DNA from: Saprospiraceae bacterium
Lineage (GTDB): Bacteria > Bacteroidota > Bacteroidia > Chitinophagales > Saprospiraceae
Reading direction: 5' to 3'
DNA length: 53,072 nt
Assembly (NCBI GenBank): GCA_027080725.1
Contig: JALWRC010000074.1
Span: 1 to 53,072 of the forward strand
The notes beneath the pieces were generated by a model. The model worked only from the letters and a program-made list of their open reading frames with translations. It was not told where the DNA came from and ran no database searches. Position 1 is the stretch's first letter. Each line of letters starts with the position of its first letter. A program made the translations under genes and the position numbers. Positions 17,327 through 50,155 of this stretch are shown here, piece by piece.

Positions 17327-17339
17327 GGTATGAAATGGT
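17327..17339 (-). repeat. Dispersed 13-mer, exact copy
   Basis: GGTATGAAATGGT, the inverse of ACCATTTCATACC. It lies in the gap upstream of the sulP start and is inverted relative to the copy at 17514-17526. Confidence 0.85.
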
Positions 17340-17513
17340 TGATGGGGAGGTGGATCTTAACCCCATCGCATCCCTACCCTCTTGTACTCTTTGTAAGAAT
17401 CTGCACGCAACCACAGAGAATGGGTGCAGAAATAAACTACTCTACGATTAGCAAAGGTTGCAAAAATTAATGAGTATTTAAGTAACCCACATCACGCATG
17501 TAACCGAGTGTCT

Positions 17514-17526
17514 ACCATTTCATACC
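17514..17526 (+). repeat. Dispersed 13-mer, exact copy
   Basis: ACCATTTCATACC followed by AAAAAAA and preceded by T, the full 18-bp consensus TACCATTTCATACCAAAA. It lies just past the stop of the lipoprotein gene at 17561. Confidence 0.85.
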
Positions 17527-17560
17527 AAAAAAACAACGCATTATCCTCAAACTCCCGATT

Positions 17561-19159
17561 TTACTCCGGCTCCGGGGCGATCTGTTGTAACGACAATCGG
17601 TTGCCCTTACGGTCCAAAACCAGAATATACGCGCCTTTATGCTTCAGGACAGGGAGTCGAATTCGTTGATTCTTCTCCACTAAAGTAGCAAAATACGGCA
17701 CCTTGTCGTAGTAATCTGTCCGGCTCTTGAGCTCTTCGGGGTAAAAAAGGGATACTTGAACTTCCTCACCAAAGCTGTTCTTATACACCCGCATCGTGTC
17801 GCCCATGTCCTGCTGCATTCTCAGATTATTGAGTAAAAGCAAATCTACGGATTGGAGCCGGTGCTCCTTAAAATATCGTCCCTTCAATAAGGTGTATTCA
17901 CGGGTCGCCTGATGGCTGTATTTATCCAAATGCGTCTGGCTAATCGTCAGGGGATCGATGTGGTATTTGTCCCGGAATACCTTGGCCAACCACCGCCTTC
18001 CCCGCTTGGTCTCCCGCTCAAGGATATGGTCAAAACCCGCCAATACCACGACGCGGGATGCTGTATCCTGCCCGAATGTCTTGTCGTACAAATGCACGGC
18101 CTGCCCCACCTCCCGGTCTATCCCGGCATCCTGTGATTCGTATGCTACAAATCGAAATCCCATCCGTCTGGCAGTATGAATAAGCCGGTTATAATGCTGC
18201 TCCCGCGTATAAAATCCGGTCGCCAGCGTCGGAAATCCGCCGGGAGCATTCAATACACTGTCCTGCCCGGCTCCCAACGCTTCAAGCGCTAAGGTGTTGA
18301 ACCCCTCCTTCCTCAACCCCTGCAATAGGCGGACGAGTAAGGCGCGATGTCTCGGGGCATAATGATTTTCATTGAACATGACCAACTTGTGCCCACGAGC
18401 CTCCGAAAGAATGGTGTCCAATGCTGCTTCGCCTGTAATTCCCCTGGTTTGTATGGTGTGGACCATGTTGGTGTCTGGCGTACCCCCATGCGATTGGAGC
18501 TTTTGCCATAAGGCATCGTATTCTTTATTCTCACCCAAAAAGGAGGCGAAGGTGAGTTCCATCTGCAACTTCAACCACTCCTCCTGCTTGTCATAGGCGG
18601 GATAATCCCTGATCGCTTCCAAAGCCGCCAAATACGCATTGGACGACCTGTACCGGGCTACAATATCCATTACCGTGCTGATCTCCTTGCGATACCCTTC
18701 GCCCACCTCCAAACTCTCAAACATATCCCTCAAATCCGCCTCTAAAGCGTAAATAGCCTTCGGAGCCCTTGGAATGCCCACAAACCGGAAGCGCTGATGC
18801 TTTAGGATGGTATCCAGTACCACCAAACTATCCGGATAATCAAAAGTGTCTTTGGGGCCGGAGAGCGCCAAGAAAAAAGCATAGGGAGGAAAATCGGTAC
18901 TGCCATACACCAAGACCCCTTTCTCCACCTCGAAATCCAAATGCCGGAGCAGCCGGTTCAATCGGCGTTTGTTGGTCGTATATACAATATCGGCAGGAGA
19001 GCGAAAATACACTTGTTGTGTGTCATTGACGATGTGGATATGGAAGTCGCGCACATAATGGTTGTACTTAAAGGTTTTGTGAACGCGATTGCTGCATCCC
19101 AAGAGCACCCCCATCGTCAGAACCCCTACGAGCCAGGATAGCGTCTTTTCAAACAACAT
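17561..19159 (-). CDS. Lipoprotein with TIKI/EreA/ChaN-like domain
   Basis: A 532-residue predicted lipoprotein: signal segment LVGVLTMGVLLGCSN with the lipobox Leu-Leu-Gly-Cys. The N-terminal 200 residues are unrecognised. From about residue 250 the sequence reads HKLVMFNENHYAPRHRALLV, then LRKEGFNTLALEALG and MGFRFVAYESQD, and later VVVLAGFDHILER. The 'NExH..H', 'EAL' and 'GxxH' layout resembles the TIKI/TraB, ChaN and erythromycin esterase superfamily, which binds metal or haem at conserved Glu and His residues. Function is not known. It is the last gene of an operon with an ECF sigma factor and its likely anti-sigma factor; the gap from the anti-sigma gene is 18 bp, so it may be part of the signal pathway or its output. 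Confidence 0.65.
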   Translation of the reverse strand: MLFEKTLSWLVGVLTMGVLLGCSNRVHKTFKYNHYVRDFHIHIVNDTQQVYFRSPADIVYTTNKRRLNRLLRHLDFEVEKGVLVYGSTDFPPYAFFLALSGPKDTFDYPDSLVVLDTILKHQRFRFVGIPRAPKAIYALEADLRDMFESLEVGEGYRKEISTVMDIVARYRSSNAYLAALEAIRDYPAYDKQEEWLKLQMELTFASFLGENKEYDALWQKLQSHGGTPDTNMVHTIQTRGITGEAALDTILSEARGHKLVMFNENHYAPRHRALLVRLLQGLRKEGFNTLALEALGAGQDSVLNAPGGFPTLATGFYTREQHYNRLIHTARRMGFRFVAYESQDAGIDREVGQAVHLYDKTFGQDTASRVVVLAGFDHILERETKRGRRWLAKVFRDKYHIDPLTISQTHLDKYSHQATREYTLLKGRYFKEHRLQSVDLLLLNNLRMQQDMGDTMRVYKNSFGEEVQVSLFYPEELKSRTDYYDKVPYFATLVEKNQRIRLPVLKHKGAYILVLDRKGNRLSLQQIAPEPE

Positions 19160-19177
19160 CTCTTTAGTTTAAAAATA

Positions 19178-19849
19178 CTAATTAATCGGTGAAGGCATTG
19201 ACTCTTGTTGGTATTCGAGGATGAGGCCATTGGCGAGGTAAAGGATAATAGCCTTGTGGGCTATTTCTATCCGTCTGACCCCCGGATGCATCACTTTGAC
19301 CTGCCCATCTTCATTGGAGACGTGAAGCAAGTAGGCATCGGTATTAGCGCGACCGGCTTGAAGATAATAATGCCCGTCCGCTGTATGAAAAACGTGCAAT
19401 CGCTCCGGGATAAAAGCGGCATTGGCCATGACAAACTCCTCTGCCAGCTTCCATGTCCCCAACATGCTATTGAGATATTTTATCTTACCTGAAGCGGGCG
19501 AATGCTCCGGGGTGGGGGCATGTGTACGAGACATATGAACAGGTGTCGCAGCGGTCGGACGGTAAATCACAGGCCGGAGCGTGGCCTTTTTGGAAGGGCG
19601 GTAATCCTCGAGTTGAGCGACGTCATAGGTCTTTGTCTTCGCCCGGATATACTGCGCCAACCAAGCGATGTTAACCAAAAGGATAACCGAAGCGGCCACT
19701 TTGATGATCCGGTTCAGTCGGCGAATTTTACGATGGAGCCTGTTGACCTCGCCCAAACGTTTAGACAGTTTTGACCAGGTCTTTGGATGCGGATTGATAT
19801 GGAGTTCTTCCGCCGATTTTTGAAATATTCTTTCTATGCTATTTTCCAT
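19178..19849 (-). CDS. Putative membrane anti-sigma factor
   Basis: A 223-residue protein with a cytoplasmic basic N-terminus (KRLGEVNRLHRKIRRLNRII), a single membrane segment (VAASVILLVNIAWLAQYI, about 51-68), a Pro/Thr-rich linker, then a periplasmic domain of about 110 residues with WKLAEEFVMANAAFIPERLH. Position directly after an ECF sigma gene (18-bp gap) and topology suggest an anti-sigma factor, but no zinc (ZAS) motif or FecR domain is visible. The periplasmic part resembles small 'lipocalin-like' domains in its strand pattern only loosely. Confidence 0.55.
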   Translation of the reverse strand: MENSIERIFQKSAEELHINPHPKTWSKLSKRLGEVNRLHRKIRRLNRIIKVAASVILLVNIAWLAQYIRAKTKTYDVAQLEDYRPSKKATLRPVIYRPTAATPVHMSRTHAPTPEHSPASGKIKYLNSMLGTWKLAEEFVMANAAFIPERLHVFHTADGHYYLQAGRANTDAYLLHVSNEDGQVKVMHPGVRRIEIAHKAIILYLANGLILEYQQESMPSPIN

Positions 19850-20578: not shown

Positions 20579-20635
20579 GGTATGAAATGGTGTACACCAG
20601 GGTGAATTCGTTCTCACATTCAACCATTTCATACC
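20579..20635. repeat. Inverted pair of the dispersed 13-mer
   Basis: GGTATGAAATGGT at 20579-20591 and ACCATTTCATACC at 20623-20635 are perfect inverse copies separated by 31 bp, so together they form a potential 13-bp stem. They lie between the divergent sigma and aminopeptidase P genes, 83 bp upstream of the latter. Confidence 0.85.
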
Positions 20636-20717: not shown

Positions 20718-22121
20718 ATGTTTGAGCCAACCGTTTATAAAGAAAGAAGAGCCCGGCTGAAGCAACTTCTCCGTGGTGGAGTTATTCTCCTGCAAGGCAA
20801 CAATGATGTTCCGATGAACTATCCCGCCAATCCGTACACTTTCCGACAGGACAGCACTTTTTTGTATTTCACGGGAGTAAATACCACGGGATTTGCCTTA
20901 ATAATGGATCTGGATACAGGGGAAGACTCCTTATACGGCTACGATTTGGAGGTGGATGATATCATCTGGATGGGCGAACTGCCCGGACTCAAGGAGTGGG
21001 CCAGGGTTGCCGGCATCCAACATACGTGGCCCTATAACCAACTCTCTACAGACCTCCAATCCATCCAACATAGCAACAGGAAAATACACTTCTTGAATCC
21101 ATACCGGTCTGACCTCAAAATCGAACTGAGTGGTATGCTCGGTATCGATATCGATGATTTGGAACAGCGCGCCTCTGCGGAGCTCATTAAGGGGATTGTC
21201 GCCTTGAGATCCATCAAAGAGGACCGGGAAATTGCCGAGATGGAAGCCGCCCTGCACACGACAAAACACATCTATCTCCGGGTCATAAAAAACACATTGC
21301 CCGGGGTGAAAGAACAGATATTAACCGGCATCGCCGAAGGCATCGCCATCGAAAACGGGGGGCATCTCGCCTATCCGGCCATCATCTCCAGGGATGGAGA
21401 AATTTTGCATAACCACCACCATCACCATACCCTCAAAGATGGGGATTTGGTACTGGCTGATATCGGTGCCGAAGGCCCTTCAGGGTATGCCTCGGATATC
21501 ACACGGACCTTTCCGGTTTCTTGCTGCTTCTCTGAGCGTCAGCGCGCCATTTATCAGATCGTCTTGGATGCGGAAATGTCCTGTATCGAAATGCTTCGGC
21601 CGGGAATCACCTACCTGTCCGTTCACCTTCACGCCGCGACCATCATCACCGAGGGCCTCAAGGAGCTCGGCATCATGAGGGGAGATACGGACGCAGCGGT
21701 CAAGGCCGGAGCCCACGCTTTGTTTTTTCCGCACGGTCTCGGACACATGATCGGTCTGGATGTCCACGACATGGAAAATCTCGGAGAAGATTATGTCGGA
21801 TATAGCGATAGCGTGCAGCGCAGCAGCCAGTTTGGCACCGCTTATTTGCGATTAGGCCGGGAGTTGGAACCCGGCTTTGTCCTGACCGTCGAGCCAGGCA
21901 TATATTTCATACCAGCCCTGATAGATTTGTGGAAAAAGGAGAACAAGCACTCCGGTTTTATTAATTATGAAATGGTGGACCAATGGCGTTCCTTTGGAGG
22001 GGTGCGCATCGAAGACAATGTCCTCATAACCGAAGATGGACACCGCGTCCTGGGCCCGGCTATCCCGAAAACCATCGAAGAAATCGAAGCACTCAAAACA
22101 CCTCCTGGAAGGATTTCATAA
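20718..22121 (+). CDS. pepP: Xaa-Pro aminopeptidase (aminopeptidase P)
   Basis: A cytoplasmic metallopeptidase of family M24B that removes an N-terminal residue preceding proline. The 467-residue protein has the AMP_N domain (MFEPTVYKERRARLKQ, then NPYTFRQDSTFLYFTG) and a pita-bread catalytic domain. The five dinuclear metal ligands are visible: Asp248 (VLADIGAE), Asp260 (YASDITRTFP), His339 (FFPHGLGH), Glu392 (LTVEPGIYF) and Glu432 (VRIEDNVLIT). HNHHHHHTLKDGD around residue 235 is a histidine-rich loop. Length and motifs match the family. Confidence 0.94.
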   Translation: MFEPTVYKERRARLKQLLRGGVILLQGNNDVPMNYPANPYTFRQDSTFLYFTGVNTTGFALIMDLDTGEDSLYGYDLEVDDIIWMGELPGLKEWARVAGIQHTWPYNQLSTDLQSIQHSNRKIHFLNPYRSDLKIELSGMLGIDIDDLEQRASAELIKGIVALRSIKEDREIAEMEAALHTTKHIYLRVIKNTLPGVKEQILTGIAEGIAIENGGHLAYPAIISRDGEILHNHHHHHTLKDGDLVLADIGAEGPSGYASDITRTFPVSCCFSERQRAIYQIVLDAEMSCIEMLRPGITYLSVHLHAATIITEGLKELGIMRGDTDAAVKAGAHALFFPHGLGHMIGLDVHDMENLGEDYVGYSDSVQRSSQFGTAYLRLGRELEPGFVLTVEPGIYFIPALIDLWKKENKHSGFINYEMVDQWRSFGGVRIEDNVLITEDGHRVLGPAIPKTIEEIEALKTPPGRIS

Positions 22122-25652: not shown

Positions 25653-26231
25653 TTGAAGCAAGATGCGACCAATATTAAGTTGATTATAGAGGGATGTCTG
25701 ACGCAAAGTCCGGCCTCTCAGAAGCGCTTGTTTGATTTGCGTTATGGGTTTGTGATGTCCATATGTCAGCGCTACGCTCGCACAAGGGCTCAGGCTCAGG
25801 AGATGCTCAACGATACTTTCTACAACGTATTTAAATTCATCGATCGCTACGATCCAAAATACCCCTTTGAGCCCTGGCTTCGAAAGGTGTGCGTCAACTG
25901 TTGTCTGATGTACCAGAGAAAGTATTTTAAAAAGGAAAATTTATATCCTTTGGAAGAAAAATACATTGATATTCAGTACGAAGAAATGAAGTTGCCCGAA
26001 CCCGAAGACTACGATTATATGAAATTGTTGAAAGATCTTCCACCGGCATGCAGGACGGTGCTCCTTTTATTCGTAATCGAGGGATACAAGCATCATGAGA
26101 TTGCCGAAAAATTGGGCATTAGTATCGGCACCTCAAAATCCAATCTATCGCGGGCCAAAAGATTGTTGTATGAAATGGTTGAAAAAGACAAATCGGGACA
26201 CCTAAAACTCAAAAAGAATAGTCGTGAGTAA
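25653..26231 (+). CDS. ECF-family sigma factor (TTG start)
   Basis: A 192-residue ECF sigma factor: region 2 in FVMSICQRYARTRAQAQEML and NDTFYNVFKFIDRY, region 4 in LPPACRTVLLLFVIEGYKHH followed by EIAEKLGISIGTSKSNLSRA. The only start that keeps region 2 is a TTG at 25653; no in-frame ATG lies upstream. Its end overlaps the GTG start of a membrane protein by 8 bp, so the two are translationally coupled, a sigma/anti-sigma arrangement. It is upstream of the DUF4956/HlyD/TolC genes and may control them. Confidence 0.87.
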   Translation: MKQDATNIKLIIEGCLTQSPASQKRLFDLRYGFVMSICQRYARTRAQAQEMLNDTFYNVFKFIDRYDPKYPFEPWLRKVCVNCCLMYQRKYFKKENLYPLEEKYIDIQYEEMKLPEPEDYDYMKLLKDLPPACRTVLLLFVIEGYKHHEIAEKLGISIGTSKSNLSRAKRLLYEMVEKDKSGHLKLKKNSRE

Positions 26232-27513
26232 ATTATTCGAACATATCAAAAAAAGCATCGATAGCCAGCCTGTACCGAAGAAACCGGATACAGCATGGGA
26301 GGACTTTATGCGCTATAAAAAGAAGAAGGATAGAAAGAAGCCTTTTCCTTGGACGATGCTTGTCTTATTGTCCCTACTCGGATTGTTTCTGGCGAGCAAT
26401 TTGTATTGGATGGGTAGGTCCTCAAGGCAGTCAAGTGCTCCTGCACAAGAGCATATTGTCACGGTTGTGAAGAGAGATACGGTTTATATCCAGCAACCTG
26501 CATTGGTGCCCCCTTCAAATGCCAATCAAGGGGCCAACGCGGGTATTGATGCTTCCGAATATCATCTCGTACGTCAAGAGTTGACGTACTTGAGGTCAAA
26601 ATACAACCAGCTGCGGGCCTTACTCTCTACATCCAACCATTTCATACCAAAAACTTCTTACGCATGGAATAGGAGTGGAGGAAAATTTGGAAATCAAGGA
26701 GATTTCGGAGCTTCTTCAGGTACCATATCCCTAGGTGGAGAATCCACTTCTAATACTCATAAACCATTCGGTGTATCGGAGCATTCTCCGCAAATCCATT
26801 TGAATGAGGCTGCCCCCCTGGATTATTATCTGCTATATCCGCAGTCACTCTATGGGTATGGGATAGGTAGACCGTATTATTACATCCTCAATGAGCGATA
26901 CAACCGGAGCAAAAGTAGTTCGCTACTGACGTATGTCACTCCTAAGACCATCACCCTCGGATTGCATGCAGGGCTGGCTGCTATTTTCAATCCGTTGTTG
27001 AGTACTTCGATTGGACCGGGATTAGGATTGAGTGTCGGAACCTTGTTTTCCAAAAGGATACGAGGGGTACTATATGTAGATCGAATTACGACTATGGGTC
27101 ATATAGAAGACCACAGCAAATTTCAATCTTTACCAGTTGTTGTCCCACCCAATGGGGGGACACTAAAGGAAGTGTATTATGATGCCAATTTGACCGCATT
27201 GAGTTTGTCGATGGATTATTTGTTCCCCACCTATTGGAGAATTAGACCATTTGCCGGTCTATGTTATTACTACAATTTCGTGCGGAGCAACGAATTAAAA
27301 TACGAGTATTATACCGATCAGGGAGAAGTCAATAAACTTGTATATGCTCCCTCTTTGAGGTACAATCATCACGCGTTAGGGCTTCGAATGGGGATGGACT
27401 TTAATTTGACAGATCACATCGATGCTTATCTGTTGGGGACATTCCAACCCAAACTCAGGAAAAATTCGGGTGTCCTCTTCTATTTATCCCCGGGGATATA
27501 TTACCATTTATAG
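26224..27513 (+). CDS. Membrane protein, likely anti-sigma factor with barrel-like C-terminus
   Basis: A 429-residue protein that starts at GTG inside the sigma gene. Residues 1-42 are cytoplasmic and basic (MRYKKKKDRKKPF), then a membrane segment (WTMLVLLSLLGLFLASNLYW, about 44-63), a low-complexity linker, and from about residue 235 a Tyr- and Gly-rich domain (LGLHAGLAAIFNPLLSTSIG) with barrel-like strand alternation. The coupling with an ECF gene suggests an anti-sigma factor, but the large C-terminal part is unusual for one and would lie in the periplasm. One exact copy of the 13-mer falls in the linker (26636-26648). Confidence 0.6.
   Translation: MSKLFEHIKKSIDSQPVPKKPDTAWEDFMRYKKKKDRKKPFPWTMLVLLSLLGLFLASNLYWMGRSSRQSSAPAQEHIVTVVKRDTVYIQQPALVPPSNANQGANAGIDASEYHLVRQELTYLRSKYNQLRALLSTSNHFIPKTSYAWNRSGGKFGNQGDFGASSGTISLGGESTSNTHKPFGVSEHSPQIHLNEAAPLDYYLLYPQSLYGYGIGRPYYYILNERYNRSKSSSLLTYVTPKTITLGLHAGLAAIFNPLLSTSIGPGLGLSVGTLFSKRIRGVLYVDRITTMGHIEDHSKFQSLPVVVPPNGGTLKEVYYDANLTALSLSMDYLFPTYWRIRPFAGLCYYYNFVRSNELKYEYYTDQGEVNKLVYAPSLRYNHHALGLRMGMDFNLTDHIDAYLLGTFQPKLRKNSGVLFYLSPGIYYHL
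26636..26648 (+). repeat. Dispersed 13-mer inside a coding region
   Basis: ACCATTTCATACC followed by AAAAAC, within the linker of the putative anti-sigma protein, where it encodes NHFIPK. Confidence 0.8.
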
Positions 27514-32134: not shown

Positions 32135-32138
32135 AAAA

Positions 32139-37095: not shown

Positions 37096-39782
37096 CCTAT
37101 TGTAACAGAATCATTCATCTTATATTTTGGCTTCTATTATCAGTTAATCTTAGTTTCGGACAAGGAAACTTGGAAAGATATATCAGTATCAAATTCCACA
37201 ACACGACCATTCAAGAGGCATTATTAGAACTGGGTGAAGCAGCCGATATTTCCATTGGTTTTGACCCGCATATGTTTAACCATCAAAATAAACGCATACA
37301 TGCAAATTTTATAAACACACCATTAGATTCGGTTTTAACTACTATTTTGGATTCGACAAATGTTGACTTTGTAATTAAGAATAACCAAATTATCCTCAAG
37401 CCGAATGTTCTCAAAAAGATTAGACTTACAGGTTATGTATCCGATGCAACAAGCAGGGAAAAACTTGTTCGGGCGACACTTTACGACAGGGTTCATAATA
37501 CCTTAATTATTACCAATGACTATGGATATTTTAGTGTCAAACTCCCCAATGGCAATTACGATTTTGATATATCCTATGTAGGATATCAACCCAAACGAAT
37601 ACATCAAGCCCTAAATATTCCGGTTAGTTTGGATATACTATTGGAGCCGGCAACCTACCTGGGAGAGGTGATCGTGAATGAACATCAATTCAAGAGCGAT
37701 CTATTTGGTAAATCATTACAGAGTGACATTAGTCTCCAGAAAATTAACAATAAAATCGGGAAAGGAGGAGAAAACGACTTGGTTCAATATATTCAAACTA
37801 TAGCCGGAGTCAAAAGTGGAGCTGACGGACTTGGTGGGCTCAATGTAAGAGGGGGAAATTTTGATCAAAATACTTTCATTGTAGATGATGCGACGATATT
37901 CCAACCTTACCATGGATTTGGGCTTTTTTCTATTTTCAATACGGATGCGATACGTCATGTAAGCTTTTATAAGTCGGGTTTCCCCGCCAAATATGGTGGA
38001 CGGCTTTCCTCTATTTTGGACATCAAAATAAAAGAAGGAAATACCCAACACTTTGGATATCACTTCTCGACAAGTACGCTAATGACAGGAATCACTGCTG
38101 ACGTACCTCTTAAAAAGGAGAAAGCGGCTCTTTTTTTCGCAGCGAGAAGAACTCATATAGACCCTTTCATTAGATGGTATTCAAGGAAGCAAAAGAAAGA
38201 AAAAGACCAAAATGGAGTCAATAATTTCTTTTTTTATGATTTGAATATAAAATTCCACTCCGCCATAACCAAATCAAATAGAGTCTATTTAAGTATTTAC
38301 AATGGAGGAGACCTATATAGTGATACCACGGGATTTGTTGATCACGACATTGATTATAATGTTGTCCAAAATCAAAATCAAGAACTGAAATGGCAAAATA
38401 GTTTTATTTCCTCCAGGTGGAATCATATATACCATAATTCGTTATTTAGTAATTTGACATATACTCATAGTAGGTATGGATACAATAGTAAACTAAGACA
38501 ATACAGTCAGCTATTATTAATAGATTCTTCATTCCAAAGCCTGAACCAAAGCGACTATCATACGACCATCATCGATGACAATATAAAGCTTGATTATAAC
38601 TTTTATTTAAACCAAAAGTCTGAATTGTTTTTTGGTGGTCAATTCTTACATAGAAAATTTCATACGGACTTGTTTTACTATGACATTGATTTGGACGATA
38701 TATTTACGGAACCACATAAAAAACTTCAATATGTAGATCCTATTTCCTCCCCGGTAGTTTTTTTAGCTGATGAGATTAGTCTTTATCTTGAAAATAAATA
38801 CACATTGAGTTCTCATTTTCTTATCCATTATGGAGTTAGAGGAAATCTCTTTAACCATGAAAGCTTTTACAATTTTTCTATCCAACCGAGGGTCAACATT
38901 ATTTGGGTTCCCGACAAAAGCATTTTGGCCAATCTGAGTTTTACCAAAATGAATCAAAACTTACATAATCTAAGTGTGTCCGGAGGATTCCCATCGGATA
39001 TTTGGGTTCCTTCCAATGAATGGGTTAAGCCAAAAACCTCTTTGCAGGTATCCAGTTCCATTTCGAAACAATGGAACGAATCATGGAGAACTTCAATTTC
39101 CACCTATTACAAGAACATGGAGAATTTGATACAGCTTTATGATGCGGCAAAATTGCCTGGAATTGTAGAAAATGATCCTTTGTTTTGGGAAGATCAGGTA
39201 AATGTGGGACTTGGAAAGGCTTATGGCATTGAATTGGCAACTTTAGTGTCTACATCTAAATGGAAATGGGATATCAGTTATACCTACTCCACATCAGTAA
39301 GGAAATTTGAGGGTATTAATAATAATCAATTTTTTCCGGATATATTTGATCAAAAGCATCGAATGAATACGCAGGCCAATATCGTTCTCAATAAGAACAT
39401 GAGTCTCTATTTATCTTGGCAATGGAATTCCGGAACGCCTTATACTCTTTTCAATAGTACAGTACATTTCAACCCTTTTGTCACCGATTATTTTGGTTTA
39501 GAATCAGAAGATGATAATACTGGCCATTCAGGTCTTATTAACGGCAACAGATTGCCGGATTATCACAGTCTGGATTTTGGGCTGCTCATACAGTGGTCAA
39601 GAAAGAATTACTCAAATAGATTGGCGATAGGTCTGAACAATGTGTACGATCATAAAAATGTTTATTTTGCATATAACTTTGTTGATATACTTGAAGAAAA
39701 GGATGATCAACTCATATATAAAACAACTCTTCCATTAATACCATTCTTCAAGTATAGCATCCAATTTGAATCATCAAAGTAA
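37086..39782 (+). CDS. TonB-dependent receptor with STN signalling domain
   Basis: An 898-residue outer-membrane receptor. Order: signal peptide (LIFWLLLSVNLSFGQ), STN domain (ISIKFHNTTIQEALLELGEA), a carboxypeptidase-regulatory-like domain (KKIRLTGYVSDATSREKLVR), plug (NDLVQYIQTIAGVKSGADGL, then NVRGGNFDQNTFIVDDATIF) and a 22-strand-type barrel ending FFKYSIQFESSK. The STN domain lets it pass the ligand signal to FecR. Ligand unknown; there is no SusD partner, which argues against a classic polysaccharide system. The nearby convergent metallopeptidase suggests a peptide or protein-derived ligand, but this is only proximity. Confidence 0.92.
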   Translation: MPVTYCNRIIHLIFWLLLSVNLSFGQGNLERYISIKFHNTTIQEALLELGEAADISIGFDPHMFNHQNKRIHANFINTPLDSVLTTILDSTNVDFVIKNNQIILKPNVLKKIRLTGYVSDATSREKLVRATLYDRVHNTLIITNDYGYFSVKLPNGNYDFDISYVGYQPKRIHQALNIPVSLDILLEPATYLGEVIVNEHQFKSDLFGKSLQSDISLQKINNKIGKGGENDLVQYIQTIAGVKSGADGLGGLNVRGGNFDQNTFIVDDATIFQPYHGFGLFSIFNTDAIRHVSFYKSGFPAKYGGRLSSILDIKIKEGNTQHFGYHFSTSTLMTGITADVPLKKEKAALFFAARRTHIDPFIRWYSRKQKKEKDQNGVNNFFFYDLNIKFHSAITKSNRVYLSIYNGGDLYSDTTGFVDHDIDYNVVQNQNQELKWQNSFISSRWNHIYHNSLFSNLTYTHSRYGYNSKLRQYSQLLLIDSSFQSLNQSDYHTTIIDDNIKLDYNFYLNQKSELFFGGQFLHRKFHTDLFYYDIDLDDIFTEPHKKLQYVDPISSPVVFLADEISLYLENKYTLSSHFLIHYGVRGNLFNHESFYNFSIQPRVNIIWVPDKSILANLSFTKMNQNLHNLSVSGGFPSDIWVPSNEWVKPKTSLQVSSSISKQWNESWRTSISTYYKNMENLIQLYDAAKLPGIVENDPLFWEDQVNVGLGKAYGIELATLVSTSKWKWDISYTYSTSVRKFEGINNNQFFPDIFDQKHRMNTQANIVLNKNMSLYLSWQWNSGTPYTLFNSTVHFNPFVTDYFGLESEDDNTGHSGLINGNRLPDYHSLDFGLLIQWSRKNYSNRLAIGLNNVYDHKNVYFAYNFVDILEEKDDQLIYKTTLPLIPFFKYSIQFESSK

Positions 39783-39823
39783 AACAAGGAATTGCCCTAT
39801 AATTTTCGGGCAATTCCTTGTTT
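39782..39823. terminator. Bidirectional terminator between receptor and protease genes
   Basis: AAACAAGGAATTGCCC (39782-39797) pairs with GGGCAATTCCTTGTTT (39808-39823), a perfect 16-bp stem with A/T-rich ends on both sides. It begins in the last base of the receptor stop codon and serves both convergent genes. Confidence 0.85.
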
Positions 39824-39850
39824 AAAATGGAGGTATGATTGGTATGAGTA

Positions 39851-41647
39851 CTATTTGTTCAATTTGGCCTTTCTTGACCTAGCTATCACCTCATTTTTTC
39901 TAACACTGGTTTTTCTTCTTGTGTTTGTGATCTTTTGCTTCCCTAAATGAATTTCCACACAGAATGCAAGGACTTCGAACGCACCATAAATTCCATCAGA
40001 TCCGATAATAAACTCTCCGTCTTCACCTACAAGTTCAATACTTCCTTCCCCATACTCACAACACAATCCATCTTCATAGGCATCATTTACGATTAGGGTA
40101 TAACATCCGTCTTCAAGACAAAACGTTTCCCGGACTTCTATTCCTGCATTTCCATCCTCATAATTTCCACCTTGATATAATATTTCTCCGAATTCATTGA
40201 TAAGCACCCATTTGACGTCACTGCCATAATCATCAAGGACAAAATTCAGCCCAATCGTATTATAAGTGCATCCATTCTCGATTTGTTTGGTACCAAAAGT
40301 TGAGATCGGACTATACTCTCCTTCTTCGTCTGAGCAAATAGATTTTACTTGATACTCATATGTTTTACCAGCAAGTAGATCAATCAATACAAGTGACGGA
40401 ACATCCACTTGTATCTCTACAAAACTCTGCTCTGTCTCCTCTTTATATCTGACCATATAACCAACTGCCCCGGAAACGGGTAACCATTCAATTTTTGCAG
40501 ATTCGGCTGTAATTTCACGTACTGTAATATCTGAGGGAGTTTGGCAGGCGCTTGTTGTATCACAAGGTTTGCAATCCGGACCTCCACAATCGATGCCGGT
40601 TTCCTTTCCATTTTTTATACCATCTGAGCAAGTACCATCAGAAGTCTCAACAACACATACATTGGCGGCATTGTCTACGAGGTTTTGTAATGACATACCA
40701 ATATAGTTCGTAGACCTTACTACTTGTCCCTCGGAGAACATATACATACAATCATCATCAACATAGTCCATATAGTTCATAAACAAATCAGAGGATCCAC
40801 AACTTTCTATACCTAATTGCGGACAGTTATAATGGGGTTCTTCGGCGTCTGGTGTATCACTTACTTGATCATCCTGACCACAACCACCACCCCAGATGTG
40901 TTCCAACATTAAATAGTGCCCCATCTCGTGAGTCAAAGTCCTGCCTAAATTGTAAGGAGCTTGGGGTTGAATAGAACCACAACTTAATCCTTTTCCAAAC
41001 GCAGCTGCATCAATTACTACGCCATCACCATTACCTATACCACCCAGGGGGGAGTATCCTAGGACTCCAATGTTGGGTTGGACAAAGATATTAATGTATC
41101 CAGACCATTTTGCATCAAAGTCGCCGGATGTTTTGTTGACAGTTACAGCGGGGTCTCCATCGGATAATCCATATCCGGACGGGTGATTTTTTGTAGCGAT
41201 ACAAAATTTAAACTTTCCCTTCCCATTGGTTACTCCAGGGAAGGTACTTGATGCGCCATTTATCCATTTTGTAATATCGGAGTTGGTCCCACTATAGTCT
41301 TTATTCAAAACGTCCACTTGACTTTGAGCCAATTGTCGAAGGCATTCAATATCCGGATTAACAACATTTTGAAAATGAACAGCAACAGGAAGCACCGTAT
41401 TTTGATTGATCTCAAAATAGCTAAGCCCCTCTAACAAGCTAATGGCTTTCATTCTTTCATTATGTTGTTTTCGATAGGCCGGATCTGATAATAGTTTTTT
41501 CATGTGATCACTCAGACCACAACTTCTTTTGGATACGGGTAGATAAATATTGGCCGTATTGTTTTCATTGCCAATAATTTTATCTTTTTCACATGATGTA
41601 AAGATAAGGCCTAATGTAAAGAGGCACAAAACAAGATAATTTTTCAT
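39851..41647 (-). CDS. M43-like (pappalysin-type) metallopeptidase lipoprotein
   Basis: A 598-residue predicted lipoprotein (LVLCLFTLGLIFTSCEKDK; acylated Cys near residue 19). The protease domain holds the zinc motif HEMGHYLMLEH, followed by SDTPDAEEPHYNCP and the Met-turn LFMNYMDYVDDDCMYMFSEG. These features match M43 cytophagalysins, except that the usual Gly after the second His (HExxHxxG) is Met. A CSDGIKNGKETGIDCGG cysteine motif, one fibronectin type III domain (SDITVREITAESAKIEWLPV) and a beta-sandwich domain follow. The end is a basic tail (TRRKTSVRKNEVIARSRKAK) instead of a T9SS sorting domain. Convergent to the TonB receptor. Confidence 0.82.
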   Translation of the reverse strand: MKNYLVLCLFTLGLIFTSCEKDKIIGNENNTANIYLPVSKRSCGLSDHMKKLLSDPAYRKQHNERMKAISLLEGLSYFEINQNTVLPVAVHFQNVVNPDIECLRQLAQSQVDVLNKDYSGTNSDITKWINGASSTFPGVTNGKGKFKFCIATKNHPSGYGLSDGDPAVTVNKTSGDFDAKWSGYINIFVQPNIGVLGYSPLGGIGNGDGVVIDAAAFGKGLSCGSIQPQAPYNLGRTLTHEMGHYLMLEHIWGGGCGQDDQVSDTPDAEEPHYNCPQLGIESCGSSDLFMNYMDYVDDDCMYMFSEGQVVRSTNYIGMSLQNLVDNAANVCVVETSDGTCSDGIKNGKETGIDCGGPDCKPCDTTSACQTPSDITVREITAESAKIEWLPVSGAVGYMVRYKEETEQSFVEIQVDVPSLVLIDLLAGKTYEYQVKSICSDEEGEYSPISTFGTKQIENGCTYNTIGLNFVLDDYGSDVKWVLINEFGEILYQGGNYEDGNAGIEVRETFCLEDGCYTLIVNDAYEDGLCCEYGEGSIELVGEDGEFIIGSDGIYGAFEVLAFCVEIHLGKQKITNTRRKTSVRKNEVIARSRKAKLNK

Positions 41648-42060
41648 AATTCAAATATTTTAAAGGATTAATTAATGATATTTGTCCTCCAGACGAACAG
41701 TTTCAACTTACCCCCTATACGGATAAACTTTTTTTTAAAAAAAAACTTCAAATTAAGTTATAGACAGGGTGACTGGAATGATCTTCTATTAATTTTCAAG
41801 ATATGTTGGCAAGTTAAGGTGGCCTGGGGGGAGGCTATAGCGCCGATAGGTCACCGTTTAGGGGGCATAAGTAGCAGATACATACCTTTTGATTCGACTT
41901 ATTTTAGAGCAAGTCAATACTAAAACTATTTGTCACATTCTTTGTAGTTTTGTAATCCAAAATACGCGAGGAAGGTCCGGGGGTGTATAATGACCGGTAG
42001 AAAAATGATTTGGATCCCACGAATAGCCCTATCTGCTTCGCTACCCAAATATTAATTAGT
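41648..42060. other. Divergent intergenic region
   Basis: A 413-bp gap between the divergent M43-like and sialidase-like genes. TAGTTTTG at 41945-41952 fits the -7 consensus TAnnTTTG on the plus strand, about 110 bp before the sialidase-like gene; a -33 box is not clear. No gene seen. Confidence 0.4.
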
Positions 42061-43629
42061 ATGTTGCATCTGCTTCGATCTTTCGTTATCTTTTATTTCT
42101 CGCTTCTCTTAGCAATGTATGGCAAGGCGCAAAACATTATGATTAGCGATACGGACAATCCCAATGAACCCTCAATCACTATCGATCCAAAGCATCCGGA
42201 CCACTTAGTGGCCGGTGCTAATATCAACTCTTATTATTATAGCCGGGATGGGGGAAAGACATGGGAGGAAGGTCGCCTTCAATCCACTTACGGTGTCTGG
42301 GGAGATCCGGTCATTGATGTAGATACGGGAGGTAATTTTTATTTCTTTCACCTGTCCAATCCCCCACAGGATGGGCATTGGGTAGATCGCATCGTCTGCC
42401 AAAAATCTACCGACGGTGGGATGACCTGGTCGCCGGGGACCTTTACCGGACGCAACGGCACCAAGGTGCAAGACAAGCACTGGACCATTATCGATAGAAA
42501 CACCAATCAGATATTTGTGACCTGGACACAGTTTGACAAGTACAACAGCTCAGATCCAAAGGACAGCAGTAACATCCTCTTTTCTACTTCGACGGACGGA
42601 GGAGCGTCCTGGAGCCCCCCTCAACAAATCAACCATGTGTCCGGGGATTGTGTGGATAGCGACAATACCGTCGAAGGTGCCGTACCGGCCCTCGGACCCA
42701 ATGGAGAGATCTATGTCGCCTGGGCCGGACCCGATGGGATTGTGTTTAATCGTTCGCTGGATACCGGTAAGACCTGGTTGGCGCGGGAAATCCATGTATC
42801 TGACAATCCCGGAGGATGGGATTATTCTATTCCGGGGATATACCGGGCCAATGGGTTGCCGGTCACCAAATGCGATTTGAGTCATGGCAAACACCGGGGC
42901 ACCATCTATGTCAACTGGTCGGACCAACGCAACGGAGAGAATGACACAGACATCTGGTTATCCAAATCCACAGATGGAGGAAATACCTGGAGCACTCCGG
43001 TACGCGTCAATGATGACCCCGGCCAGAAACATCAGTTTCTTACCTGGATGGATATTGACCGGACGACGGGTTATCTCTTTTTTGTGTTCTATGACAGGCG
43101 CAACTATGAGGACAATCGGACAGATGTGTATTTGGCTATCTCAAAAGACGGTGGAGAGACGTTTATCAATCGACGGATTAGCGAGCGCCCCTTCCTCCCC
43201 AATGAAGGCATCTTCTTTGGAGACTACAACAATATCGTCGCACATGATGGTATCGTCCGGCCTATCTGGACGCGTTTGCATGAGGGTAAACTCAGCCTTT
43301 GGACGGATATTACCGATTTGGATACGCTGTTGTCCACCGGTGCCCCCTTAAAGTCCACCATTTCATACCCGATCGAGCAATACCCCAATCCGACAGATAA
43401 AATGAGCTATATCTCATTTAAACTTCATACGGTTGCGACGGTCTCCCTCGTGTTGAGAGATGTCCATGGCAAACGGATAAAAACCCTGTTTACCAGCCGG
43501 AAGATGCATCCTGGAAAGCATATTATTCCGGTCGATACCCGCGCATTGGGGCTCTTGCCCGGGGTATATTATACCGGGATTACGATCAATGGTCAGAGCC
43601 AAACCCTAAAAAACGTGGTCGTTAAGTAG
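42061..43629 (+). CDS. Secreted BNR-repeat (sialidase-like) protein with T9SS sorting domain
   Basis: A 522-residue exported protein. Signal peptide: SFVIFYFSLLLAMYGKAQ. The beta-propeller has at least five BNR/Asp-box repeats: YYSRDGGKTWEE, QKSTDGGMTWSP, STSTDGGASWSP, NRSLDTGKTWLA, SKSTDGGNTWST. A type A T9SS sorting domain closes the protein (YPNPTDKMSYISFKLHTVAT, then GLLPGVYYTGITINGQSQ, ending KNVVVK). BNR propellers occur in sialidases but also in non-catalytic binding proteins; I do not see an unambiguous Arg triad. The start at 42061 gives the signal peptide; the frame opens earlier at 42010. Its TAG stop coincides with the beginning of a family 2 repeat fragment. Confidence 0.82.
   Translation: MLHLLRSFVIFYFSLLLAMYGKAQNIMISDTDNPNEPSITIDPKHPDHLVAGANINSYYYSRDGGKTWEEGRLQSTYGVWGDPVIDVDTGGNFYFFHLSNPPQDGHWVDRIVCQKSTDGGMTWSPGTFTGRNGTKVQDKHWTIIDRNTNQIFVTWTQFDKYNSSDPKDSSNILFSTSTDGGASWSPPQQINHVSGDCVDSDNTVEGAVPALGPNGEIYVAWAGPDGIVFNRSLDTGKTWLAREIHVSDNPGGWDYSIPGIYRANGLPVTKCDLSHGKHRGTIYVNWSDQRNGENDTDIWLSKSTDGGNTWSTPVRVNDDPGQKHQFLTWMDIDRTTGYLFFVFYDRRNYEDNRTDVYLAISKDGGETFINRRISERPFLPNEGIFFGDYNNIVAHDGIVRPIWTRLHEGKLSLWTDITDLDTLLSTGAPLKSTISYPIEQYPNPTDKMSYISFKLHTVATVSLVLRDVHGKRIKTLFTSRKMHPGKHIIPVDTRALGLLPGVYYTGITINGQSQTLKNVVVK
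43357..43369 (+). repeat. Dispersed 13-mer at a domain boundary in a coding region
   Basis: ACCATTTCATACC at the linker between propeller and T9SS sorting domain, encoding STISYP. Confidence 0.8.
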
Positions 43630-46353: not shown

Positions 46354-47922
46354 CTACTGTTTAGGTTTACCATTTTTAAATAGCACCAACCGCAAGGATT
46401 TGAAAGTAGAACTCTTTTTCATCTTCTTCAAATAACTGACGGCTTCCGAATAAATCGTGAAGGGTCCCGTATAGTAACGGTAAGTATTACCTGAACCGGC
46501 TTCATCCTCAATAAAGATAAATTTCAGTCCGTTAAAGTGTTTATCATCCTGTGAGATGATATCATCCCTGGACTCCAAAAACAATAGATATCCGGTAAAA
46601 TCGCTTGGAATCCGTGCAGAAGAAGGTATGGTTGCTAGCATTTTCGGCCCATTTGTCCCCGTAGGCATTGTATCCGGTTTTGCTACCGGTGTGGATGGTT
46701 TATCCGCTTGTTTTTGCTCTTTTTGCTTCAGAAACTTTTTGAGGTCTTCGGGCATATCCTCCCCTTCTTTATACTCTACGACCTCGGGTTCACCCTCCAT
46801 TACTTTGTGCATAAAATTCTCTTCGTGAATAATCTGTTGGAGTGATTTAAAGGAATTGCTTTTTTCTTCGTTGATGCCGGTGATCTTGATCTCCGTCCTG
46901 CGATTTACTTCATGCTCTTTATCCGAACAATTTACGCCATTCTTACAACGATTGAGGATATGCGTTTCTCCATACCCTTTGGCTGAAATGCGCCGGGCAT
47001 CGATACCGTTTTTGACGATGTATTGGACAGCGGCTTCAGCTCGCTTTTGGGAGAGGCGCATGTTATAACTATCCTTTCCGCGGGCATCGGTGTGGGAACC
47101 CAGTTCGACTTCCAGTGCCGGATTGTCTTTGAGCATCTTCACCACTTTGTCCAGTTCCACTGCGGCATCAGGACGAATAAAATACTTATTGTAATCATAA
47201 TGAATATTTCTAATCTTAAACGAACTGCCGATTACGGCTGGACGGAGCAATACAGTCGATAACAAGGTGCCGTGTTGCTGATCCGAATTGATATTGTCGG
47301 TGACATTGGGCTCAATACTTCCTATCCCGTCAAAACACAAAATACACCCCCGGACATTGACATAGGCCTCCATTCTCCGGGTCAAAAAACCCTTTTTGCG
47401 AATCATAATGGTGTAGTGGTTGCCCTTTTTGAAGGTAAAATTGAATTCTGACTTGGGGTAATTTTCCAAAACCAGTTCCTCCTTGTCCGTAGTGTTGTTG
47501 AAGATCTCGATACGGGTATTCTTAATGGATTCCATCGGAGCATTGGGATCATCGGTCGCTTTTGCGATGAGCATCTCAAAGATGTATCCCGGCTCTCTAA
47601 TCATCCGTAACTTTAAGAACAACTTTTGGCCTGCCGCGGGTGCCGTGGTATCCATTTTTAAGGTATGAAATAGTTGTTTCCCGGCTGTGATAAAAACCGG
47701 TTGGAGGGGCGGAACCTCCAGGACAAAATGCCCCTCTGCATCCGAATAGGTCTCGGCGATAGGAGTGGTCGAATAGGAATTGGGGTAGGCCTTGATTTCG
47801 ACCTGACCCAGGAAACCCCGGTTTTCGTCCTCAAAGACATATCCGTCCAAGACCGCTTTTTGGGCCGGTAGTCCCATTGAAACAAACAATATTATAATAA
47901 CAATCCATCTGATGTCATGCAT
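46354..47922 (-). CDS. OmpA-family outer-membrane protein
   Basis: A 522-residue protein. Signal peptide: WIVIIILFVSMGLPAQ. Residues 25-110 form a carboxypeptidase-regulatory-like fold (LDGYVFEDENRGFLGQVEIK), repeated in part up to about 200. The OmpA C-terminal domain (about 245-350) binds peptidoglycan: YFIRPDAAVELDKVVKMLKD, then VELGSHTDARGKDSYNMRLS and VNRRTEIKI. The C-terminus (about 440-522) resembles a SPOR-like fold. Such proteins tie T9SS or gliding-related complexes to the wall; this one has no PorE or PorP neighbour. Confidence 0.87.
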   Translation of the reverse strand: MHDIRWIVIIILFVSMGLPAQKAVLDGYVFEDENRGFLGQVEIKAYPNSYSTTPIAETYSDAEGHFVLEVPPLQPVFITAGKQLFHTLKMDTTAPAAGQKLFLKLRMIREPGYIFEMLIAKATDDPNAPMESIKNTRIEIFNNTTDKEELVLENYPKSEFNFTFKKGNHYTIMIRKKGFLTRRMEAYVNVRGCILCFDGIGSIEPNVTDNINSDQQHGTLLSTVLLRPAVIGSSFKIRNIHYDYNKYFIRPDAAVELDKVVKMLKDNPALEVELGSHTDARGKDSYNMRLSQKRAEAAVQYIVKNGIDARRISAKGYGETHILNRCKNGVNCSDKEHEVNRRTEIKITGINEEKSNSFKSLQQIIHEENFMHKVMEGEPEVVEYKEGEDMPEDLKKFLKQKEQKQADKPSTPVAKPDTMPTGTNGPKMLATIPSSARIPSDFTGYLLFLESRDDIISQDDKHFNGLKFIFIEDEAGSGNTYRYYTGPFTIYSEAVSYLKKMKKSSTFKSLRLVLFKNGKPKQ

Positions 47923-48195: not shown

Positions 48196-49368
48196 TCACT
48201 CCACATAAAAACGGCGATATCCGGTGTATACACTTTCTCCAGCTTGAACAAAGACGGTATAATAGCCCGGAGAAAGAAAAGAAATGAGTATCCTCCCTTT
48301 GAAACCGAGGATAGTACCTGCGTTGACGGGTCTGCCCAACAGGTCGATAATCGACCATTTCATGCCAGACAGATCTTCTCCGGAAGTTAATAGCAAATAG
48401 CCCCCCTGTACGCGGGCTTTGATGGACAATTCCTCAATATTTGGATTTGTTGAAGCTGTAATTTTCTCACAGGGAGGTTGGACGTCGTTTAGATGCTCGA
48501 TGAAAAACGCTTCCAACCTTCTTCGGAAATCGCGTTCGTCAAAGCCACCATGCCCTTTGCCTTCGTAGAAATACAACTCCGCATCCACACCATGCCGTAG
48601 AAGGGTGTCATACAACAATTGGCTCTGCAATGGGGGCACCACACAGTCCATGTCTCCATGGTGTATCTGGACGGGGATATCACTGTCATCCACATATGCA
48701 ATAGGGCTTGCAAATCGCGCCCTATCAGGGCATTCCAAGGGCTGGCAGCCCAGCAACTGGTCGGAAGCCGAATGGGGCTTGTTCTGGGTATTGCGCCGCC
48801 GGCAAGAATCGGGAAAAATAGAATCAAAACGGATTAAATCCGTAGGTCCAAAGGCATCAACAATAGCATATACCCTCGAGGAAACCTCCAGATTGCCCAA
48901 ATGACGTCCTTCCAACTCGTGAACACCGTTGGAGAGACCCAACAGAGTGGCCAGGTGGGCCCCCGCACTGGTTCCCATCACTCCAAAGCGACAGGTATCG
49001 ATGAAATATTGATCGGCATGAACCTTCAAAAAGCGCACCGCCGCTTTGCAATCAAAGATTTGAGCCGGAAAAATACTGTCCCCACTCAAACGATAATTGA
49101 TATCGGCAATTACGAATTGCTCCCGCTCCAACAGCCCTCTCAAATGCCTCAGGGCCGGTCCTTTCTTCCCTTTTGACCAGCCTCCACCGTGGATAAACAT
49201 GACCACGGGACGCGGGGCTTTTACCCCTTCCGGCACAAAAATATCCATGATTTGCTTCTCATGCCCGTCTTTGACATACGGGATATCGACATAGGTCTGT
49301 GAGAACCCGGATACACCGAGGGTTAATAAAAATGCCGTAAAGATGAATGGGAAGAAAGATCGATGCAT
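48196..49368 (-). CDS. Secreted alpha/beta-hydrolase (esterase) with T9SS sorting domain
   Basis: A 390-residue exported enzyme. Signal peptide: FFPFIFTAFLLTLGVSGFSQ. The hydrolase has the oxyanion motif MFIHGGGWSKGKKG, nucleophile GTSAGAHLATLLGLS, acid in IHHGDMDCVVPP and His in YEGKGHGGFDE, a complete catalytic triad of the BD-FAE/carboxylesterase type. The C-terminal 80 residues form a T9SS sorting domain (SIIDLLGRPVNAGTILGFKG, then LSPGYYTVFVQ). The start at 49368 yields the signal peptide; an upstream ATG at 49422 adds 18 residues. Confidence 0.88.
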   Translation of the reverse strand: MHRSFFPFIFTAFLLTLGVSGFSQTYVDIPYVKDGHEKQIMDIFVPEGVKAPRPVVMFIHGGGWSKGKKGPALRHLRGLLEREQFVIADINYRLSGDSIFPAQIFDCKAAVRFLKVHADQYFIDTCRFGVMGTSAGAHLATLLGLSNGVHELEGRHLGNLEVSSRVYAIVDAFGPTDLIRFDSIFPDSCRRRNTQNKPHSASDQLLGCQPLECPDRARFASPIAYVDDSDIPVQIHHGDMDCVVPPLQSQLLYDTLLRHGVDAELYFYEGKGHGGFDERDFRRRLEAFFIEHLNDVQPPCEKITASTNPNIEELSIKARVQGGYLLLTSGEDLSGMKWSIIDLLGRPVNAGTILGFKGRILISFLSPGYYTVFVQAGESVYTGYRRFYVE

Positions 49369-49450
49369 GTTTTTTGAAGTTATTACGTTTTTTGGAAGGG
49401 AAAAGTTGGTGAGTAGAACCATTCTTTTGAAGAGTATGGCAGACTCAACC

Positions 49451-49864
49451 CTAATTTAAAACCGGAGGATAAATCAGCAAAAATTCCGGTACTTCTGCCT
49501 GAAAGAAGGTGCCCCCCTCGAGATCCATCATAGTGTAAGCACCCGACATTTTTCCGATTACGGTACTCACATGGGTCCAGGAGCTGTAATGAAAATGACC
49601 ACCGGGTTGGATAACGGGCTGTTGGCCGATGACCCCTTCCCCTTCGACTAAAGAGATGCCCCCAAGCGCATTTTCCACTGCCCAGTTGCGTCTCAATAAC
49701 CGGATGGGTTGATCCCGGAGATTGTGTATGGTAATGTGATACACATGCCCATAGATTGATCTTGCCGGAGACGACTGCTGGGGAAGAAAGCCTACCTCTA
49801 CCTCGATGGTAACCCCTTCCGTCGTTTTGACGTATTGCAAAGCCAATCTGTTGTTTGAAGCCAT
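49451..49864 (-). CDS. apaG: ApaG protein
   Basis: A 137-residue protein with the ApaG beta-sandwich: VTIEVEVGFLPQQSSPARSI, then GHVYHITIHNLRDQPIRLLR and WAVENALGGISLVEGEGVIG, GGHFHYSSWTHVSTVIGKMS. ApaG proteins are linked with Co2+/Mg2+ efflux or dinucleoside polyphosphate levels; the biochemical role is unsettled. Length is normal. Confidence 0.93.
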   Translation of the reverse strand: MASNNRLALQYVKTTEGVTIEVEVGFLPQQSSPARSIYGHVYHITIHNLRDQPIRLLRRNWAVENALGGISLVEGEGVIGQQPVIQPGGHFHYSSWTHVSTVIGKMSGAYTMMDLEGGTFFQAEVPEFLLIYPPVLN

Positions 49865-49918
49865 GGTTATTTTCTATGTATTAGTTGTAAAACAACAGAT
49901 ATGTGCAAGAGGTTCACC

Positions 49919-50035
49919 TTACTTATATTGAAGAGTTTTGTTGCGTGCCCATTTAATAGCCTGTTCTTCGAATGACCGGAATACTGTAGCCTTATCCATA
50001 CTTTCCGGTTTGCCTCTCAATCCAACCCATGTCAT
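49919..50035 (-). CDS. Small hypothetical ORF upstream of apaG
   Basis: A 38-codon frame with ATG at 50035 and TAA at 49919-49921. The product (MTWVGLRGKPESMDKATVF, then RSFEEQAIKWARNKT and LQYK) looks like real protein. The frame remains open for another 16 codons upstream of the ATG, so the true start may be further up or this may be the 3' remnant of a longer gene. It lies 54 bp before apaG on the same strand. No family recognised. Confidence 0.4.
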   Translation of the reverse strand: MTWVGLRGKPESMDKATVFRSFEEQAIKWARNKTLQYK

Positions 50036-50142
50036 CTGTACATTAAAAATCCCGGTGCTGCGAAAAATGAGATGTAGAACAATCTATTTTCCGGCAAAAT
50101 CACTACTTTTACCCAACGGTTTTATCGCCGGATAGTGTAGAT

Positions 50143-50155
50143 GGTATGAAATGGT
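50143..50155 (-). repeat. Dispersed 13-mer, exact copy
   Basis: GGTATGAAATGGT lies 51 bp upstream of the acs start, in a 171-bp gap after the small ORF at 49919-50035. Confidence 0.85.

Follow-up and report, generated by a model that had tools for sequence, protein, structure and literature searches.

Word-based, self-specific uptake of DNA is established in the Pasteurellaceae and Neisseriaceae, both of which are proteobacterial and both of which use type IV pili for this purpose. The uptake sequences described for Haemophilus influenzae or Neisseria are evenly spaced, show no orientation bias, occur in excess in noncoding DNA, form inverted repeats in approximately 10% of cases, and exist more often as perfect than as singly mismatched copies (PMC1939737). 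The uptake signal sequence (USS) of the Pasteurellaceae carries an AT-rich motif just 3′ of its core (PMC1626085), and a minor pilin of the type IV class, ComN, has been predicted as its receptor (PMC12616744). The DNA uptake sequence (DUS) of the Neisseriaceae occurs in genus-level dialects around a common invariant core (PMC3630211). Eight genes are essential for transformation in Riemerella anatipestifer, and their products include ComEC, DprA, a helix-hairpin-helix protein, and a DUF5689 protein (PMC8459023). Riemerella columbina favors its own DNA, for which it has no known signal; no uptake word was established for Riemerella, the k-mer table giving only A- or T-rich words (PMC7965970). 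In this work, we analyzed a 53,072-nucleotide (nt) stretch of DNA from a Saprospiraceae bacterium (contig JALWRC010000074.1 of assembly GCA_027080725.1; the whole stretch is referred to here as the window), in which the 13-nt word ACCATTTCATACC is repeated eight times. Our results suggest that this word probably constitutes the core of a putative DNA uptake sequence of the self-recognition type.

The host draft genome (G000; 3.80 Mb in 110 unordered contigs, with the window on contig C74) contains 383 exact copies of ACCATTTCATACC, 192 on one strand and 191 on the other, while only 0.14 copies are expected from its base composition, which corresponds to an approximately 2,700-fold excess. This genome-wide count had been set beforehand, in an earlier note on the window, as the test on which the motif would fall if it occurred elsewhere at chance level; the motif withstood this test decisively. 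The reversed control word yielded no copies in the same genome, and six shuffled control words yielded no exact copies in 453 kb. A detailed sample of G000 (798,721 bases in 41 pieces, including the window; hereafter the 799-kb sample) revealed 91 exact copies and 72, 113, and 330 copies with one, two, and three mismatches, respectively. Exact copies thus outnumber the singly mismatched ones, as they do for the Pasteurellaceae USS, which does not arise by insertion and has two clade dialects (PMC1626085, PMC1939737). Among the 72 one-mismatch copies, the changes fell on letters 1, 2, 3, 10, 11, 12, and 13 in 6, 1, 19, 3, 7, 13, and 23 cases, and none fell on letters 4 to 9, which therefore form an invariant core.

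The word also has a flanking consensus. Based on 12-mer copies in G000, T is present at position −3 in 79 of 114 and C at position −2 in 80 of 114, and an A-rich tract follows 3′ of the core; the same trend, albeit weaker, was seen in the congeneric genome G041 (T and C in 47 and 49 of 94). A dispersed word placed on both strands, in and between genes, with a core and a 3′ AT-rich motif is likewise the published picture of the Pasteurellaceae USS (AAGTGCGGT / ACAAGCGGT) (PMC1626085, PMC1939737). The DUS, in contrast, lacks flanking motifs. Conservation fades approximately 10 bases before and approximately 10 bases after the core, and a search of the window against Rfam matched zero families. 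The possibility that the copies are fragments of one longer known repeat, which the earlier note had named as grounds for giving up the motif, was rejected accordingly. The earlier statement that many copies extend to an 18-mer proved too strong, since exact TACCATTTCATACCAAAA was found at two of the eight window copies and ACCATTTCATACCAAAA at three. ACCATTTCATACC is not palindromic and, by inspection, is unrelated to GCCGTCTGAA, AAGTGCGGT, and ACAAGCGGT. The 13-mer itself was not found in the open-license literature of PubMed Central, a body of text outside which most subscription papers and all preprints lie.

We then compared the occurrence of the word among relatives. In 199 genomes of the family, exact ACCATTTCATACC was found 383 and 237 times in G000 and G041, which represent the genus of the window, and 46 and 31 times in G069 and G161 of a second genus (g69); the other 195 genomes contained 0 to 3 copies. 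The degenerate form ACSATTTYATAC, counted over 398 family genomes, reached 600, 416, 515, and 488 copies in four genomes of these two genera, while the remaining 394 genomes contained 0 to 15 copies, level with the reversed-word controls. Each enriched genus was represented by only two species among the genomes drawn. Outside the family, ACCATTTCATAC occurred 0 to 4 times in 161 genomes of 21 other families, which were among 198 genomes drawn from the order. The form of the word in G069 is mixed, with 25 copies of ACCATTTCATAC, 12 of ACGATTTCATAC, and 9 of ACGATTTTATAC in 197 kb. When words were discovered independently, the top rank in all five control samples from the three enriched genomes went to the word or a shifted part of it. 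For eight further Saprospiraceae genomes, each sampled over 100 kb, the six best words shown did not include it. Dialects with an invariant core (PMC3630211) are shared with the Neisseriaceae DUS, as are an intergenic excess and some inverted pairs.

Enrichment alone does not prove uptake. A dispersed word can be kept by a bias of mutation or repair, as has been suggested for the upkeep of HIP1 (highly iterated palindrome 1), a palindromic octamer of cyanobacteria. We consider this explanation improbable for ACCATTTCATACC, as a specific protein that recognizes the word is indicated by the pattern of its flanks, the invariance of its core, and the confinement of its dialects to two genera. That protein, however, might act inside the cell. 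In the main rival to the uptake reading, the word would be bound within the cell by an abundant DNA-binding protein that requires dispersed sites, such as a nucleoid organizer, a chromosome-structure protein, or a global regulator. The invariant core of 6 to 8 bases with tolerant edges looks the part, and a reader of any kind would account for the persistence of the word in genomes that are only about 67% identical in aligned DNA.

The placement of the copies bears on this rival. Coding and intergenic positions were assigned throughout by a simple home-made gene caller. In the 799-kb sample, 48 of the 91 exact copies are intergenic, although only 17.6% of the DNA is noncoding (2.99-fold enrichment, P = 3 × 10−14); the corresponding noncoding enrichment amounts to 1.70-fold for G041 and 2.94-fold for G069. 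The intergenic copies lie between tandem (31), divergent (9), and convergent (5) genes or at contig ends (3). The 3-fold intergenic enrichment and the somewhat even spacing described below are both compatible with sites for a DNA-binding protein. Yet 41 of the 91 copies lie inside genes, 26 in the sense and 15 in the antisense direction (with three and two stop-free frames available, respectively), and they use every stop-free frame, which is among the strongest points against such sites. Only the sixth frame is unused, in G000, G041, and G069 alike, and this is the frame with an in-frame TGA. Moreover, the word is no palindrome, is not tied to one intergenic class, and shows no strand bias with respect to local GC skew (39:52, P = 0.21, within the 799 kb of unordered contigs). 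Taken together with the turnover of sites between congeners reported below, these data make the intracellular DNA-binding protein an unlikely explanation. The word, although AT rich itself, occurs somewhat less often in bins of high AT content (Spearman 0.17, P = 0.035).

The same strand counts speak on recombination or replication signals of the Chi, KOPS (FtsK orienting polar sequence), or SRS (SpoIIIE recognition sequence) type, which are read by RecBCD/AddAB, FtsK, or similar proteins. ACCATTTCATACC resembles such signals in being frequent, dispersed, and nonpalindromic. However, the strands are balanced across the unordered contigs of the draft genome, no bias against local GC skew was seen in the 799-kb sample, and a 13-base word in the excess seen here is longer and far more enriched than Chi and KOPS, which are octamers with much lower enrichment. 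We therefore regard a signal of this type as having little chance of being correct.

Copies less than 300 bases apart form five inverted pairs (10 of the 91 copies), of which two have no spacer and two have the same 31-base spacer. None of the five lies between convergent genes, all being in tandem or divergent regions, and the pairs are thus not terminator-like; a terminator or promoter as the main role of the word was rejected on this ground. The location of the close pairs also separates the Saprospiraceae word from the Neisseriaceae DUS. After merging copies less than 300 bases apart, the gaps in the 799-kb sample were more regular than random (coefficient of variation [CV] of 0.59 versus 0.82, P = 0.004), with 4 gaps shorter than 2 kb versus 12.4 expected (P = 0.002). 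On 16 contigs for which the complete positions were listed (86 copies, in a set that overlaps the 799-kb sample), the effect was weaker as a whole, with 11 gaps shorter than 3 kb versus 20.0 expected (P = 0.003).

Inverted pairs, some of them with equal spacers, together with the many dispersed copies, are also what one would see for a mobile-element footprint, such as a repetitive extragenic palindromic (REP) sequence or bacterial interspersed mosaic element, a miniature inverted-repeat transposable element (MITE), or the end of an insertion sequence. The flanks do not agree with this explanation, since homology with the flank of another copy was found for only 10 of the 91 copies of ACCATTTCATACC, while it was found for 23 of 28 copies of TGTGTATTACAAA, a MITE-like word that served as a control. 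Unlike REP or MITE families, ACCATTTCATACC has no shared flanks, no element length, and no insertion signature at coding sites, and no constant partner distance was found among the copies overall. For 15 of the 41 coding copies, the site was covered by a homologue from G041, and none of the 15 showed a gap inside the site, although 6 had a gap within 12 residues; it should be noted that some of these homologues are only 26 to 38% identical and may be paralogues. With homologues from other genera, a gap inside the site was seen for 1 of 10 coding copies. The alignments hence indicate that, where tested, coding copies arise by point substitution and not by insertion. What can be said for a mobile element is that 9 of 19 site rows are gapped in the nucleotide alignments with G041, in poorly aligned stretches; as such rows leave the intergenic sites unsettled, the protein-level test was used instead. 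On the flanks and the coding alignments, we rejected a mobile-element footprint, which we consider very improbable.

The sites themselves turn over between congeners. In 129 kb of nucleotide alignment between G000 and G041 (mean identity of 66.6%), which contained 10 sites of G000 and 9 of G041, the exact word was present in both genomes at 2 sites; by simple arithmetic, an unconstrained 13-mer at this identity would be shared approximately 0.5% of the time. That most aligned sites are not common to congeners is unexpected if each site serves its own cell, and this constitutes the other of the strongest arguments against the intracellular DNA-binding protein. An example of turnover lies in the window at 21964 to 21976 (minus strand), where a two-mismatch copy aligns with an exact copy in G041, so that the word was gained or lost there through substitution. 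At coding sites, 26 of 75 encoded residues (35%) are identical to those of G041, a lower conservation than in the remainder of the aligned stretches, where 1,963 of 3,811 (52%) are identical. Taken singly, 11 of the 15 sites fall below their surroundings in conservation. This agrees with the previous remark that coding copies occupy flexible linkers, as does the window copy at 43357, which sits between two domains.

The second abundant word of G000, TGTGTATTACAAA, was found in 132 copies and was absent from nine other genomes tested. Six listed plus/minus pairs of it are 219 to 220 bases apart and share their flanks, for example, C37:18338/18557, C37:21965/22184, C38:26373/26593, and C64:18158/18378, and none of the listed places is on C74. 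Judged by these sequence features, TGTGTATTACAAA is a MITE-like family of the window's species.

We also searched for genes of DNA uptake machinery. ComEC was detected in all 12 genomes tested, DprA in 11 of 12 (G000, G041, and G069 included), and DUF5689 in 11 of 12, with no match in G006. In G000, comEC (L101:14645-16771, contig C64) overlaps by four bases the next gene, which encodes a 322-residue protein with three HHH_3 stretches, and a DUF5689 protein is encoded approximately 16 kb from comEC on the same contig. The comEC gene contains one copy of the word, at L101:16202. The window's genome thus contains the ComEC, DprA, helix-hairpin-helix, and DUF5689 proteins known from Riemerella transformation, matched here by common domains rather than by sequence comparison (PMC8459023).

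Collectively, the uptake reading is supported by the genome-wide enrichment of the word, its core and flank consensus, the lack of a strand or frame preference beyond the limit set by stop codons, the substitution origin at testable coding sites, the related words of two genera, and the competence-type genes. By its anatomy, ACCATTTCATACC resembles an uptake sequence; the lack of orientation bias, the noncoding excess, the proportion of inverted repeats (10 of 91 copies here), the surplus of perfect over singly mismatched copies, the origin through point mutation, the AT-rich 3′ flank, and the dialects have all been reported for the USS or the DUS (PMC1939737, PMC1626085, PMC3630211). In this reading, free DNA would be recognized through the word by a DNA receptor located at the surface or in the periplasm, and fragments bearing the word would enter the cell preferentially. 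Once recombined into the chromosome, these fragments would enrich the word via biased transfer of point mutations, mostly at harmless places, i.e., in intergenic DNA and where the protein sequence is under little constraint. We infer that the reader of the word is probably an uptake receptor, that the organism is probably naturally competent, and that uptake apparently follows a Riemerella-like route involving ComEC, a helix-hairpin-helix protein, and a DUF5689-type surface protein and not type IV pili. Of the four roles that the earlier note had offered without choosing between them, a DNA uptake signal is accordingly the best supported and a mobile-element footprint is contradicted, while nothing specifically favors a nucleoid, segregation, or regulatory-protein site.

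Several observations weigh against the uptake reading. The competence genes ComEC, DprA, and DUF5689 are equally common in genera that lack the word, and their presence therefore demonstrates a capacity and not an association; in addition, the DprA profile had no match in G161, where ComEC is present. The DUS and USS receptors that were proposed or shown are pilins, and yet TIGR01420 (PilT family) had no match at an E value of ≤0.001 in G000 and G041, and genus g69 was not among the genomes listed with a match, in a search that concerned the ATPase and neither pilins nor the secretin. Over 120 genomes, the PilT family yielded no match above the cutoff and strong matches below it in seven genera. 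So far, there is no receptor candidate linked to the word. The density, approximately 1 exact copy per 10 kb and 1 copy per 5 to 8 kb for the degenerate 12-mer, is below the approximately 1 per kb of classical uptake words. The evidence for even spacing was obtained with close copies merged ahead of the tests and is weaker on the 16 contigs (P = 0.08 for the CV, 0.14 for gaps of <1 kb, and 0.022 for gaps of <2 kb), and it is weaker still with the counts fixed per contig (P = 0.14, 0.20, 0.047, and 0.014 for the CV and for gaps of <1, <2, and <3 kb, respectively). Finally, copies of the 13-mer with one mismatch are more numerous than exact copies in G041 (28:16) and G069 (21:11), which we attribute to the favored word being shorter or different there.

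Set against the Pasteurellaceae USS, the Saprospiraceae word is unrelated in sequence, belongs to another phylum, is approximately 10 times less dense, and occurs in genomes (G000 and G041) where no PilT-type motor was found; the Neisseriaceae DUS is again an unrelated word and is read by the pilin ComP. Because of its unrelated sequence, its lower density, and the absence of a pilus motor from the results of the search for one, we did not place ACCATTTCATACC in the DUS or USS families. There is, in our estimation, an even chance that the word serves two Saprospiraceae genera as an uptake mark of self DNA, that it evolved independently of the USS and DUS of proteobacteria, and that it is read by an uptake machine of the Riemerella type, which works without pili. 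If so, no earlier self-mark of this kind would be known from Bacteroidota, marking would have evolved more than once, pili would not be required for it, and a sequence-specific receptor would be involved. An 18-base probe could then provide a direct handle on an outer-membrane DNA receptor of Bacteroidota. The preference of R. columbina for its own DNA, which has no known signal, makes the question of self-marking in Bacteroidota testable.

Within the window, all eight exact copies were found at the coordinates reported previously, and the chance level of 0.002 copies was recomputed as 0.0020. Allowing up to two mismatches, 21 matches to ACCATTTCATACC were obtained, compared with 1.72 ± 1.30 in shuffled sequences, none of 100 shuffles reaching 21. 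The previous description of copies in genes as well as between genes was borne out, with two of the eight inside genes (26636 and 43357) and six intergenic, and both inverted pairs were confirmed. The first pair consists of the copies at 17327 to 17339 (minus strand), which is intergenic with minus-strand genes on either side, and 17514 to 17526 (plus strand), which is also intergenic and continues as the 18-mer TACCATTTCATACCAAAA. The second pair, at 20579 to 20591 (minus strand) and 20623 to 20635 (plus strand), is separated by a 31-base spacer and lies within one divergent intergenic region, with an M24 aminopeptidase P-like gene (20718 to 22121) downstream; folding of this pair as RNA is possible, with a z score of −2.57. 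The copy at 26636 to 26648 (plus strand) lies inside the plus-strand gene 26224 to 27513 and reads NHFIP. The next copy, at 32122 to 32134 (plus strand), also continues as TACCATTTCATACCAAAA and is located between the convergent genes 31319 to 31984 (plus strand) and 32139 to 33035 (minus strand). The copy at 43357 to 43369 (plus strand) reads TISY inside a BNR-repeat (sialidase-like) gene (42010 to 43629), between a BNR_2 match and a weak, sub-cutoff match to a secretion tail. The last copy, at 50143 to 50155 (minus strand), occupies a divergent intergenic region directly upstream of the plus-strand gene 50162 to 52105.

The list of near copies required some revision. The one-mismatch copy at 10446 to 10458 (plus strand; C12A) stands, the copy at 14687 has two mismatches and not one, and the positions 26168 and 47664 were corrected to 26167 to 26179 (minus strand; C13A) and 47662 to 47674 (minus strand; C3T). 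Two further one-mismatch copies, at 3748 to 3760 (plus strand; A1G) and 48354 to 48366 (plus strand; A11G), had been overlooked. An 11-kb stretch from 32135 to 43356 is free of exact or near (up to two mismatches) copies, and it includes a low-GC part (34.5 to 39.4% at 36 to 42 kb). The window also encodes a TonB-type receptor, a TonB-dependent receptor with a FecR-like N terminus that lies in this low-GC part.

Some unusual arrangements were observed in other genomes. In G041, four copies of ACCATTTCATAC are arranged in tandem exactly 25 bases apart (C12:15417-15503). A scan of genome contigs for inverted pairs gave matches in two Saprospiraceae records, L059, which evidently belongs to the G041 genome, and L060, and the latter (CALGJS010000221.1) contains three overlapping or inverted word copies within 60 bases (1598 to 1656). 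The L060 genome carries 8 degenerate-word copies in 4.7 Mb and is thus not enriched, so that its inverted pair represents a local oddity. Word discovery also returned words other than ACCATTTCATACC. The best words discovered in G001 represent a protein repeat, while G006 yielded GCGTCCCCGCC. In the latter genome (genus g7; L173 to L177), ACCYGCGTCCCCGCC is present in 106 copies (59 and 47 on the two strands; control, 0) with unlike flanks at six copies compared, and it occurs 0 to 2 times in 129 other genomes searched; ACCYGCGTCCCCGCC is possibly a second, unrelated dispersed mark in the family.

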